Source of the DNA: Alphaproteobacteria bacterium
Lineage (GTDB): Bacteria; Pseudomonadota; Alphaproteobacteria; UBA7985; JAUIBT01
Assembly (NCBI GenBank): GCA_030428565.1
Contig: JAUIDR010000005.1
Span: 1 to 64,000, forward strand
Reading direction: 5' to 3'
DNA length: 64,000 bases
The position numbers were made by a program, and so were the translations under genes. The notes under the pieces were generated by a model that was not told the origin of the DNA, did no database searches, and saw only the letters and a program-made list of their open reading frames with translations. Shown here piece after piece: positions 10,478 through 36,683 of this stretch (positions are counted from its first letter, which is position 1; each line of letters starts with the position of its first letter).

Positions 10478-11161
10478 ATGAGCGATCTCAATCACCACTG
10501 GCAGAAGGTCTATCGCGACAAGAGCCCCGACCAGGTCTCCTGGTTTCAAGCCGCGCCGCAGCCAAGCCTGGATCTGATCACCAAGCAGCGTGCGAACCTC
10601 GGCGGGCTTGAATTCATCGACGTGGGCGCGGGGGCGTCAACTCTGGTTGATTCTTTGCTGGACCTCGGCTTGGCCAGCGCGACATTGCTGGATATTTCGG
10701 CTGAGGCGCTGGCGGTCAGCCGCGCGCGCCTGGAGGCCCAAGGCCACCAAGACCTTGGCTATCTGGTGCAAGACATCAGCCAATGGCAGCCTGATCGGGC
10801 CTTTGATATCTGGCATGATCGCGCCGTGTTCCACTTCATGGTCACGCCAGAAGCTCAGGCAGGCTATCGCCGGGCACTGATGGCGGGCACGCGGCCCGGC
10901 AGCCTGATTGTCTTGGCCACTTTTGCCCTGGACGGCCCGGAAAAGTGCAGCGGATTGCCGGTTCAGCGCTGGGGGCTGGACTCGCTTCAGGCCTTCTTGG
11001 GTGAGGGCTTTCATGCGCTGGAGAGCCAGAACCACCTCCACAGCACGCCTGGCGGCGTCGAGCAAAAATTTCAATTTTCTGTCTTTGAACGCCAGCGCGA
11101 GAGCAAGCCGCGAACGAGTGGCAACACGCATGAGCAAGGACTTGTGTTAGAAATCAGTTAG
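10478..11161 (+). CDS. class I SAM-dependent methyltransferase
   Basis: HHWQKVYRDKSPDQVSWFQ, EFIDVGAGASTLVDSLLD, DIWHDRAVFHFM. C-terminal ~20 residues lie in the dispersed repeat. Confidence 0.82.
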   Translation: MSDLNHHWQKVYRDKSPDQVSWFQAAPQPSLDLITKQRANLGGLEFIDVGAGASTLVDSLLDLGLASATLLDISAEALAVSRARLEAQGHQDLGYLVQDISQWQPDRAFDIWHDRAVFHFMVTPEAQAGYRRALMAGTRPGSLIVLATFALDGPEKCSGLPVQRWGLDSLQAFLGEGFHALESQNHLHSTPGGVEQKFQFSVFERQRESKPRTSGNTHEQGLVLEIS

Positions 11162-11205
11162 CTAGAGCGGATGGGCTGTTGCTAGTCCAGCGCTCGACGC
11201 TCTAG
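11103..11205 (+). repeat. 103-bp dispersed repeat, copy A, ending in a 44-bp hairpin (11162-11205)
   Basis: About 86% identical by hand alignment, gap-free, to reverse complement of 21250-21352; ctagagcg...cgctctag terminal arms. Confidence 0.9.
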
Positions 11206-15962: not shown

Positions 15963-17855
15963 ATGACTGCCGCTACCGCCGAGTCCAAGACTTATCAATT
16001 CCAAGCTGAAGTTTCGCGCCTGTTGGATATCGTGGCTAACGCCTTGTATTCCAACAAAGAAATTTTCCTGCGCGAGCTGATCTCCAACGCCTCGGATGCT
16101 TGCGATAAATTGCGCTACCGCGCTTTGACCGAAGACGGGCTGATGAGCAGCAATCAGGAGTTGAGCGTCTTGCTGGAACCCGACCCCGAGGCGCGGAGCT
16201 TGACCGTCACCGATAACGGCATCGGTATGAACGAGGCCGATTTGCAAGATACCTTGGGCGCCATTGGCCGTTCGGGTACGGCAAAATTCATGGAAGCTTT
16301 GGAAAATTCCAAAGACAGCAATCTGATCGGTCAATTCGGTGTCGGCTTCTATTCTGCTTTCATGGTGGCCGACTTGGTGACTGTGGAGACCCGCAAAGCC
16401 GGTGAAGAGCAAGCCTGGCGCTGGCAGTCGGACGGCAAGGGCGACTATAGCATCGAGCCCATCGGCTCGCGCCCTGTCGGCACCCGCATCATCTTGAGCT
16501 TGAAAGAAGATGCGAGCGAGTACGCCGAGCGCCAACGCCTGGAGCATTTGGTCAAGAAATACTCCGACCACATCGTGATCCCGGTTCAAATGCCCGCCGA
16601 AAAGCAAGACGTGGGCGAAGAGGGCGAGGCAGGCCAAGAATCGGACGAATGGCTGGTGACGCTTAACACCGCGTCGGCCTTGTGGACCAAGCCCAAATCA
16701 GAGATCGCCAAAGAAGAATACGCCAGCTTCTATAAATCCGCGGCCGGCGCTTGGGACGAGCCTTGGGAGACGCTGCACTTCAACGTCGAAGGCCATCTGG
16801 AGCATACCGGGCTGCTGTTCATTCCAACGGCGCGACCTTTCAATCTGTTCGAGCCCGACCGAAAGAATGCCATTAAGCTCTATGTAAAGCGCGTCTTTAT
16901 CACCGACGATTGCCAAGAATTGGCCCCCGCTTACCTACGCTTTATGCGCGGTGTGATCGACTCATCCGACCTGCCGCTCAATGTTAGCCGCGAATTGTTG
17001 CAGGCCTCGCCCATTTTGAACCTAATCCGCAAAGACGTGACCAAGCGCACTCTGTCGGCACTGAAGTCGCGCGCCAAGAAAGACGCTGAGGGCTACGACG
17101 CCTTTTGGGGCACGTTTGGCGCGGTCTTGAAAGAGGGCCTCTATGAAGACCCCGATCAGCGCGAGCCGCTGCTTGAGTTGGCGCGCTTCCGCTCCTCGAC
17201 CCAAGACGGCTGGGTCAGCTTGGCCGACTACAAGGCGCGCATGGCCGAGGGGCAGAGCGCGATCTACTATCTGGTGGGCGAGGATCTGGAGACCGTCAAA
17301 CGCTCGCCGCACCTGGAGGGCTTTAAAGCCAAGGGTGTGGAGGTGCTGCTCTTGACCGATCCCGTCGATAGCTTCTGGACCTCGGTGGTCGGCGATTACC
17401 AGGACACCCCGCTAAAATCGGTAACCCGAGGCGCGGACGATCTGGCGGCCATCAAATCTGGCGAGGATGCCAGCGAGGAGTCCGCGAGCGAGCCGGTCAA
17501 GGAAGGCGATTTCGCCGAACTGATCGCGGCGATGAAAGAAGCGTTGGAGGCGGACGTTAAAGACGTGCGTTTGTCAGAGCGCTTGACCGATTCTCCCGTC
17601 TGCCTGGTGGCGGATGAAGGCGATATGGACATGCAGTTCGCGCGCATGATGGCCGCCCACGGCCAAGAGATCCCCAAGCAAAAGCGCATATTGGAGATCA
17701 ACCCCAAGCACGCCACTATCAAAGCGCTAAAAGAACGCCCGGCGCAGCTGGATGACAGCGTACAGCTGCTGCTGGATCAAGCGTTGATTATGGAAGGCGA
17801 AGCGCCGCGCGATGCAACCTTGTTTGCCCAGCGCCTCAGCCGCCTGATGGCCTAG
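15963..17855 (+). CDS. htpG: molecular chaperone Hsp90
   Basis: YQFQAEVSRLLDIVANALYSNKEIFLRELISNASDACDKLRY; NVSRELLQ. Start set to internal ATG. Confidence 0.96.
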   Translation: MTAATAESKTYQFQAEVSRLLDIVANALYSNKEIFLRELISNASDACDKLRYRALTEDGLMSSNQELSVLLEPDPEARSLTVTDNGIGMNEADLQDTLGAIGRSGTAKFMEALENSKDSNLIGQFGVGFYSAFMVADLVTVETRKAGEEQAWRWQSDGKGDYSIEPIGSRPVGTRIILSLKEDASEYAERQRLEHLVKKYSDHIVIPVQMPAEKQDVGEEGEAGQESDEWLVTLNTASALWTKPKSEIAKEEYASFYKSAAGAWDEPWETLHFNVEGHLEHTGLLFIPTARPFNLFEPDRKNAIKLYVKRVFITDDCQELAPAYLRFMRGVIDSSDLPLNVSRELLQASPILNLIRKDVTKRTLSALKSRAKKDAEGYDAFWGTFGAVLKEGLYEDPDQREPLLELARFRSSTQDGWVSLADYKARMAEGQSAIYYLVGEDLETVKRSPHLEGFKAKGVEVLLLTDPVDSFWTSVVGDYQDTPLKSVTRGADDLAAIKSGEDASEESASEPVKEGDFAELIAAMKEALEADVKDVRLSERLTDSPVCLVADEGDMDMQFARMMAAHGQEIPKQKRILEINPKHATIKALKERPAQLDDSVQLLLDQALIMEGEAPRDATLFAQRLSRLMA

Positions 17856-17923
17856 GGTCTATATTTAGGCTGTAAAACAACGAGTTAGAGGCCGGGAGCT
17901 GGCGGTACGCCCGCGCCCGCGCC

Positions 17924-18259
17924 CTAGCTTTTTACGGGATAGCGATCGGCTTCTTCGAACACGTCGATCGCCAGCGAGCCCGCTTTGACCACCGCTCGGT
18001 GCTCAACGCCGGTCGGAATATCCCAGCTCTCTCCCGGCTTGAAGGTCTTGGTAACGCCGCCGATGGTCAGCTCAATTTCGCCGTGGATTAGGGTGCCCCA
18101 TTGGGCTTTGTGGGCGTGAGTGGGGATTTCAAAATCCTGTTCGAAGGTGAAGAAGACCACCAGTCCGCGATCGGATTGGATGGCTCTGGTCTTGACCACA
18201 TCCTCAGAGAAGGGCACGTCCAGCGCCGGGAAATTCATGATAAATTCCGGGTAGTTCAT
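17924..18259 (-). CDS. cupin domain protein
   Basis: PTHAHKAQWGTLIHGEIELTIGG...WDIPTGVEHRAVV. Confidence 0.82.
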   Translation of the reverse strand: MNYPEFIMNFPALDVPFSEDVVKTRAIQSDRGLVVFFTFEQDFEIPTHAHKAQWGTLIHGEIELTIGGVTKTFKPGESWDIPTGVEHRAVVKAGSLAIDVFEEADRYPVKS

Positions 18260-21249: not shown

Positions 21250-21352
21250 CTAGAGCGTCGGGCGCTGGTGTGGTGACAGCCCATCTGCTCTAGCTGACCT
21301 ATTTCTAACGCAAGTCCATGCTCACGCGTGTTGCCACTTGTTCGCGGCTTGC
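21250..21352 (-). repeat. 103-bp dispersed repeat, copy B, with 44-bp hairpin (21250-21293)
   Basis: Inverted counterpart of 11103-11205; begins 2 bp past the stop of the SIS/CBS gene. Confidence 0.9.
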
Positions 21353-21353
21353 G

Positions 21354-22337
21354 CTAGACCACGCCGAATTGCATTAGGTCTTGCAAGTGCACGATACCAA
21401 TCGGGCGCTGGGCCTCATCGACCACGAACAGGACCGAGATCTTGTTGCGTTGCATCTCGGCCAGCGCGTCGGCGGCCAGATCTTGCCCGCCGATGGTCTT
21501 GGGCGATTGGCTCATCAACTCGCGCGCGGGACGTTCCAGATCTTGGCTCTGTTGGAAGGTGCGGCGCAAATCGCCGTCGGTGACGATGCCGTTCAAGCGG
21601 CCCTGGTCGTCCAGCACACCAACGCAGCCCTTGCGCCCGCTGGTCATGGTCAACATGAGGTCGTGCAAACTGGTGGTCTCTGAGGCGAGCGGCAGGGGGC
21701 CGACCGTTTTGTCGATGATTTGCTGAACCCGCAGCAGTTGTGCGCCCAGCTTGCCGCCGGGGTGGAAATTGCCGAAATCTTCGGGCGTAAAGCCTTTGAG
21801 CTGTAACAGAACCAGCGCCAAGGCATCGCCCAGCACCAAGGTCATACTGGTCGAGGTCGTCGGTGCCTTATCGAGCGGGCAGGCTTCTTCGGCTTGGGGC
21901 AGGGTCAGGCAGACCGCCGCTAGGTTGGCGAGGCTGGAATCGGCTTGCGAGGTGATGGCGATCAAGGGGATATCAAAGCGCGCGCAATAACGCAGCGTAT
22001 CGGTCAGCTCGCGCGTCTCGCCGGAATTGGAGATGGCGATCACGACGTCGTTTTGCGAGATCATGCCCAGATCGCCGTGACTGGCTTCGCCGGGGTGTAC
22101 AAAAAAAGCGGGGGTGCCCACCGAGGCCATGGTCGCCGCAATCTTGCGCCCGATATGGCCCGACTTGCCCATGCCCGTCACCACCACGCGCCCTTTGACT
22201 GCAAGCAACAGCTCAAGCGCGCGCTCAAATTCGCGGCCCAAGCTGTCGCGCAAGGCGGTAATACCGCGAAGCTGGATGTCGATTGAGGTCTTGGCCAGCT
22301 CAAGGGCGTTGAGGTCGTCGGCGGAGCGTGGGTTCAT
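21354..22337 (-). CDS. kdsD: KpsF/GutQ-type arabinose-5-phosphate isomerase (SIS + CBS)
   Basis: VVTGMGKSGHIGRKIAATMASVGTPAFFVHPGEASHGDLGMI; two CBS domains. Confidence 0.92.
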   Translation of the reverse strand: MNPRSADDLNALELAKTSIDIQLRGITALRDSLGREFERALELLLAVKGRVVVTGMGKSGHIGRKIAATMASVGTPAFFVHPGEASHGDLGMISQNDVVIAISNSGETRELTDTLRYCARFDIPLIAITSQADSSLANLAAVCLTLPQAEEACPLDKAPTTSTSMTLVLGDALALVLLQLKGFTPEDFGNFHPGGKLGAQLLRVQQIIDKTVGPLPLASETTSLHDLMLTMTSGRKGCVGVLDDQGRLNGIVTDGDLRRTFQQSQDLERPARELMSQSPKTIGGQDLAADALAEMQRNKISVLFVVDEAQRPIGIVHLQDLMQFGVV

Positions 22338-36062: not shown

Positions 36063-36161
36063 GGCCTCCTCCTAGCAAGGCACGCGGCCTTGGTTTTAGT
36101 TATTTGTTATTAAAGGCAAATCCATCGCTGGGATCGTTGCAGGCTGCTGCGGGGGATTGCC

Positions 36162-36683
36162 CTAGGCAAGAAATTTAGCGTAGTAGCGCACCCACTTTCC
36201 ATCCTGTCCGGCCTCGGTCATGTCGCGATCATACAAAGCCGCAAAGCCCAAAGCTTTGTGGAAGGCGTGCGAAACGGGGTTGTCGGGCTTGCAGTTGACC
36301 TCGCAGGTCATCATCAGCAAGTCACGCTCGCGCGCCGCTTGTTCTAGGGCTGCATAAAATCGCCGTGCCAGACCCTGCCCCCGCGCCTCAGGCGCCACCA
36401 CGATACGGTCAACGTAGGCAAAGCGCAGCAGGCGCTGTTGTAGCCAGACATAGTTGGCGCCTTCATGGGCGGCGTTTGGGCCCAAGGCGAGCAGGAAGGA
36501 GCCGGTCTTGGGTTCGGCCAGCGCCAACATGGCGACGTCGATTAGGGCCTGCAAGCTGTCGCGATCCAGCGGTGAGGTCACGGCAACTACCTCTTGGTTG
36601 CGCGCGATCACCTTATCCAAAAGCGCGCGCTGAGCGTGGCGCAGATCAACGAGCCCGTGGGCAGGTGACGGGGCTTGGTTCAT
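36162..36683 (-). CDS. GNAT family N-acetyltransferase
   Basis: YVDRIVVAPEARGQGLARRFYAALEQAA; HAFHKALGF. Confidence 0.85.
   Translation of the reverse strand: MNQAPSPAHGLVDLRHAQRALLDKVIARNQEVVAVTSPLDRDSLQALIDVAMLALAEPKTGSFLLALGPNAAHEGANYVWLQQRLLRFAYVDRIVVAPEARGQGLARRFYAALEQAARERDLLMMTCEVNCKPDNPVSHAFHKALGFAALYDRDMTEAGQDGKWVRYYAKFLA

Follow-up and report, generated by a model that had tools for sequence, protein, structure and literature searches.

The window analysed here, a stretch of 64,000 nucleotides from the genome that we call G000 (its congeners being G001 and G002), carries two copies of a repeat, each directly behind a gene. Copy A lies at the 3' end of a methyltransferase gene (positions 10478 to 11161, forward strand; Pfam PF13649, E 1e-8) that has an orthologue in G001 and whose end enters the repeat. 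Copy B lies behind a SIS-CBS gene (KdsD-like; positions 21354 to 22337, reverse strand; Pfam SIS, E 5e-31, and CBS, E 2e-18), and the TAG stop of this gene (21354 to 21356) falls within the terminal CTAG of the copy. When positions 11103 to 11205 were compared with the reverse complement of 21250 to 21352, we obtained a gapless alignment in which 14 of the 103 positions differ, the number estimated by hand in the original prediction. The repeat is real, but the proposed 103-bp span was short by 5 bp at its start. In an alignment of 37 to 38 copies with their flanks, conservation begins and ends at CTAG on both sides, giving a unit of 108 bp, of which 104 bp form the element proper and 4 bp a YTAR junction, mostly CTAG. 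With these bounds, copy A covers positions 11098 to 11205 (forward strand, CGAG...CTAG) and copy B positions 21250 to 21357 (reverse strand, CTAG...CTAG; placed by model matches, bounds and alignment with copy A), and they differ by 16 mismatches over the full unit.

Each unit folds as two imperfect hairpins separated by a linker of 11-12 nucleotides. From the family folds and covariation, module 1 of copy A (hairpin arm 1, 53 nucleotides, with a partly decayed outer stem) was assigned to positions 11098 to 11150 and module 2 (hairpin arm 2, CTAGAGCG...CGCTCTAG) to 11162 to 11205, the linker joining them at 11151 to 11161 being also placed by linker comparison (all on the forward strand). An Rfam scan of the window gave only a tRNA above the gathering threshold and no RNA family matched the repeat; at another locus (L258) there was a sub-threshold match to the Brucella sRNA BASRCI27 (E 0.002).

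We then looked for further copies. A whole-genome search with copy A returned at least 41 matches besides copy A itself, with E values down to 1e-40, and the repeat is therefore not a chance resemblance; the possibility left by the original prediction that only these two copies exist, as a simple duplication, is ruled out. For the census we used two covariance models, R1, built from 37 copies, and R2, in which copies of G002 were included. R1 gave 77, 53 and 17 matches in G000, G001 and G002, respectively, and R2 at least 84, 68 and 44, with up to 150 candidates scored per genome, so that old copies may be underrepresented in these counts; the matches of G002 are older and diverged. Copy A scores 107 bits with R2, and the same model found two old relics in the window, one at positions 36072 to 36165 (reverse strand, 25 bits, E 3e-5) and one at 17847 to 17927 (forward strand, 24 bits, E 8e-5), the latter between two convergent genes, htpG and its neighbour, that both end in CTAG. 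R2 found no copies in eight further genomes belonging to the same order, a plasmid BLAST with copy A gave no matches, and within a collection of named genomes the MAG Alphaproteobacteria bacterium Co_bin.199 was the sole one with the exact core pattern. The copies of G000 and G001 form slightly different subfamilies, and two insertions (contigs C53/C24 and C88/C201) are common to both genomes; the element has therefore spread both before and after these genomes separated. The modules do not appear to move independently, since the 40 scored matches in a DNA search with module 1 all fell at full-length copies, except for a tandem in G001. In this tandem (contig C180, L034/L171, 1295 to 1594), one complete unit is preceded by repeats of module 1 with a period of 64 bp, which would fit a separate expansion of CTAG-bounded modules. 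G000 also contains an array of four head-to-tail copies with a period of 104 (C102:2701-3119; L140 2499-2921), in which neighbours have one CTAG in common, and a dimer of the same type (C100:19989-20200), again with one common CTAG. An integron attC site was rejected as well, as single, scattered copies with such ends would not fit it.

The placement of the copies relative to genes was studied with the sampled stretches and a simple gene caller based on codon usage. Among the 68 classifiable copies of G000, 46 are flanked by convergent genes, 20 by co-directional genes and only 2 by divergent ones, and none is wholly inside a gene. As a background we took the non-coding CTAG sites in 464 kb of G000 (55 convergent, 186 co-directional and 65 divergent). 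The excess of convergent positions is marked (46/68 copies versus 55/306 available sites, p ~4e-15); it is much stronger than target availability would explain and needs selection or another preference. The stop codon of the neighbouring gene falls inside the terminal 4 bp (CTAG or TTAG) in 27 of the 72 copies of G000, 19 of 46 in G001 and 7 of 17 in G002. This share is near the background, 83 of the 322 non-coding CTAG sites being stops (p 0.06 against 27/72), so that the stops can be explained by CTAG targeting together with the elimination of insertions that do harm. In the same 464 kb, which include the window, TAG is the commonest stop (140 of 370) and CTAG is present at 86 stops, unexpected at a G+C content of about 60%. 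As for orientation, copies A and B both turn their module-1 end to the upstream gene, as predicted, but the family has no such preference: junction stops occur 14 times at the module-1 end and 16 times at the module-2 end, so both ends behave alike.

These data bear on the possibility that the repeat is a functional RNA or a transcription terminator, whose hairpins would act in transcript 3' ends (termination, mRNA stability) and be kept by selection. The convergent bias and the near absence of divergent positions are what such a function would give, as is the covariation of the stems between lineages (cells with changes on both sides number 85, versus 47 after shuffling; columns 10-44, for instance, go from G-C to A-U). 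The location bias, however, would also arise if insertions in front of genes were eliminated; both orientations to the gene are equally common, which led us to reject a functional terminator recognisable by orientation bias, and the sampled flanks show no run of T after the hairpins. Selection on the RNA structure of single copies was looked for through the private substitutions of young copies, and none was seen. These substitutions are as frequent at paired as at unpaired positions (49 on 64 paired sites versus 30 on 44 unpaired ones), so that stems are not depleted, and those in stems have no preference for G-U over A-C (6 versus 7). A role of this kind is thus unlikely. Covariation between lineages combined with undepleted stems in young copies is as expected if the structure serves spreading and not the host. 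From these substitution patterns, inserted copies look neutral, and it is in the spreading copies that structure seems to count.

Comparison of the three genomes also gave information on the sites before and after insertion. Two genes followed by a copy in G000 (C102:3012 and C29:28297) have G001 orthologues with a CTAG stop and no element behind it; these are empty sites. At the CTAG stop of htpG, where G000 carries the old relic, G001 has a young copy inserted the other way round (L225, C191), which looks like repeated use of one insertion site. At two further pairs of orthologues (G000 C31:15553 and C89:31473 versus G002 C6:119415 and C6:196007), a young-type copy in the former genome and an old-type copy in the latter sit at the same stop in the same orientation, either because both genomes received insertions in parallel or because gene conversion replaced old copies.

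The methyltransferase gene departs from this arrangement, as its frame does not stop at the junction. In agreement with the original prediction, according to which the 5' half of copy A is translated, the frame runs for 20 codons into the element, giving the predicted tail ESKPRTSGNTHEQGLVLEIS, and ends at a TAG that is the end of the linker (tail and new stop at positions 11099 to 11161, forward strand). The G001 orthologue is syntenic and shares 72% identity across residues 1-207; it ends with FSVFERRL followed by TGA and has neither element nor tail, so that a C-terminus common to the orthologues is not the explanation. Copy A starts with CGAG, whereas most other copies start with CTAG or TTAG, and in the alignment its GAG codon (positions 11099 to 11101, forward strand) falls exactly where the orthologue has its TGA stop. 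A CTAG at this position would be a stop, and a loss of the stop after insertion is suggested by these two facts. In the simplest history, reconstructed by comparing the two genes, copy A would first have begun with CTAG, its TAG in the same codon as the TGA of the orthologue; the insertion would have kept a stop at the methyltransferase end, a T-to-G change (CTAG to CGAG) would then have opened the frame, and read-through would run to the TAG of the linker. The CTAG target of copy A is itself inferred, since the G001 site lacks a CTAG. The proposal that the element gave the protein a new C-terminus is therefore supported, although probably not by the insertion itself. A tail made directly by insertion upstream of the old stop, with no later stop loss, would explain that the element is in frame with the gene and that a TAG inside it closes the frame; the exact alignment of GAG with TGA at the element start and the retention of such a stop in 27 of 72 copies make this unlikely. 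Insertion followed by stop loss, as we prefer, makes copy A a clean two-step example of a mobile repeat lengthening a predicted protein, a harmless insertion and then the loss of a stop. In two other genes (G000 C89:46519 and G001 C116:1463), 11 residues are read from a copy, in a different frame.

We then considered how the element may move. IS630-family transposases are present in the three congeners, and IS630 ends with the sequence YTAGAGC were found in G000, G002, G004, G061, G115 and G122, all of which except G004 bear the element; the element ends carry the same heptamer. Matching ends lie about 1.05 kb apart in G002 and G115, and one end was found in G000 and G122. Some of these ends were located through YTAGAG near the transposase, a biased procedure; those of G004 and G061 were found without it, by an inverted-repeat search and by copy boundaries, respectively. 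IS630 elements duplicate TA and favour CTAG. Because IS630 insertion sequences share both the terminal YTAGAGC and the YTAR target, the repeat can be read as a MITE of the IS630 type, with the reservation that terminal repeats alone would not explain the covarying internal stems of the element. After the YTAG, the IS end of G122 matches the local element at 10 of 12 bases; over all genomes, the likeness beyond the heptamer is 3.65 of 9 bases to the IS end of the same genome versus 3.38 to those of other genomes. No IS630 transposase was found by searching G106 and G109, which bear the element. With this scant end match and these two genomes, the IS630 link is likely rather than proven.

Another candidate is a REP/BIME-type element, on whose single-stranded hairpins a transposase of the Y1 (HUH) class, such as a RAYT, would act. 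The repeat recalls such elements in that each end carries a hairpin and each boundary a tetranucleotide, and the ends of GTAG REPs also often supply a TAG stop (PMC3733652). The Y1_Tnp domain (PF01797) is, however, absent from G000, G001 and G002, while control genomes were positive, which contradicts this reading unless the enzyme went unrecognised or was lost; furthermore, the unit is 108 bp long with YTAR inside the stem, whereas REP hairpins span 20-40 bp and have GTAG unpaired at their foot. We thus regard this origin as very improbable.

Altogether, we think it probable that the repeat is a non-autonomous two-hairpin element, most likely moved in trans by IS630-family transposases, that its insertion regenerates a stop codon and that copy A lost this stop later. 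Transposases of this family (Tc1/mariner-type, DDE_3) would insert the element at YTAR and duplicate TA. Of 115 young copies, 79 have YTAR on either side, and the two empty sites are CTAG, a pattern that fits duplication of TA as well as of CTAG. Insertion into a TAG or TAA stop would leave TAG at the junction, and since the element begins with G after TA, the host gene would usually keep its stop. Insertions would survive mainly behind genes, and after insertion the copies would drift neutrally. Stop-regenerating insertion would explain why such repeats so often sit exactly at stop codons.

To place the element among other repeats, we searched 142 genomes of the class with R2. Full-length multi-copy families were found in G061, G115, G122 and G106 and one match in G109, each of these genomes representing a different family of Alphaproteobacteria. 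The distant copies keep the YTAGAGC...GCTCTAR ends and an AAAACAA..TAGAGC-like linker, and in 20 loci from these families an ORF stop lay exactly in the junction in 7 cases and beside it in 1 more. The G109 copy matched 411 plasmid records, nearly all from Rhizobium and Sinorhizobium, and R2 matched two Rhizobium plasmid copies at full length (35.8 and 26.6 bits). These rhizobial repeats of 105-106 bp, which we take to be RIME1, have the same YTAGAGC...GCTCTAG ends and a linker AAAACAAA..TAGAGC; they differ in internal sequence, and one copy (L302) has GATTC in a loop. On a plasmid of Rhizobium sp. CCGE531 (L301, 331 to 951), an annotated hypothetical protein beside csgH overlaps a rhizobial copy. 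The element has two long hairpin arms and a linker in about 110 bp, with recognisable homologues outside the genus. Because families of the same design exist in five other alphaproteobacterial families and on Rhizobium plasmids, we place it, as a branch particular to the genus, among the alphaproteobacterial bipartite repeats of the CIR/RIME1 type, with CIR compared by description.

The movement of these alphaproteobacterial two-hairpin repeats was left unexplained (PMC2229807), and IS630 is a testable candidate mobiliser for them. Whether CIR/RIME1-type repeats are passengers of YTAR-targeting IS630 transposases, which recreate the stop, colonise gene ends almost without cost and occasionally give birth to new C-termini by junction mutations, appears to us evenly balanced. 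What is new is the combination of a stop-regenerating target, a candidate IS630 mobilisation of these repeats and a stop-loss step readable in the sequence.

CIR are intergenic repeats associated with CcrM that occur in Caulobacter and other alphaproteobacteria (Chen and Shapiro 2003, in the description of PMC2229807); they are about 110 bp long with two arms and a linker, and are reported there to be absent from genes. By this description, the element resembles CIR in its size, hairpin arms and linker, its intergenic multi-copy distribution, its TA termini and its alphaproteobacterial hosts. It differs in that the conserved GANTC (CcrM) loop site of CIR has little counterpart, any GANTC being present in only 5 of 135 copies, and in that three genes read into a copy. 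RUP is a short non-autonomous unit with ends matching an IS630-family IS and inserts at TA (PMC2229807); the element resembles RUP and other IS630-linked MITEs in being short and non-autonomous, and probably in its IS630-like ends and in insertion at TA, but it has two covarying internal hairpins and an end match of only about 7 bp. Rickettsia palindromic elements sit within proteins (PMC2229807) and ERIC copies lengthen C-termini when the normal stop is lost (PMC2759123). Like these elements and RU-1, ours is a palindromic repeat adding residues to host proteins; unlike them, it normally keeps the stop through its junction, and extension follows a point change. Finally, GTAG REPs, whose termini often provide a TAG stop, lie between convergent or co-directional genes (PMC3733652), as the element does; they are, however, units of 20-40 bp linked to RAYT, whereas the element occurs in G000 to G002 without a Y1 transposase.
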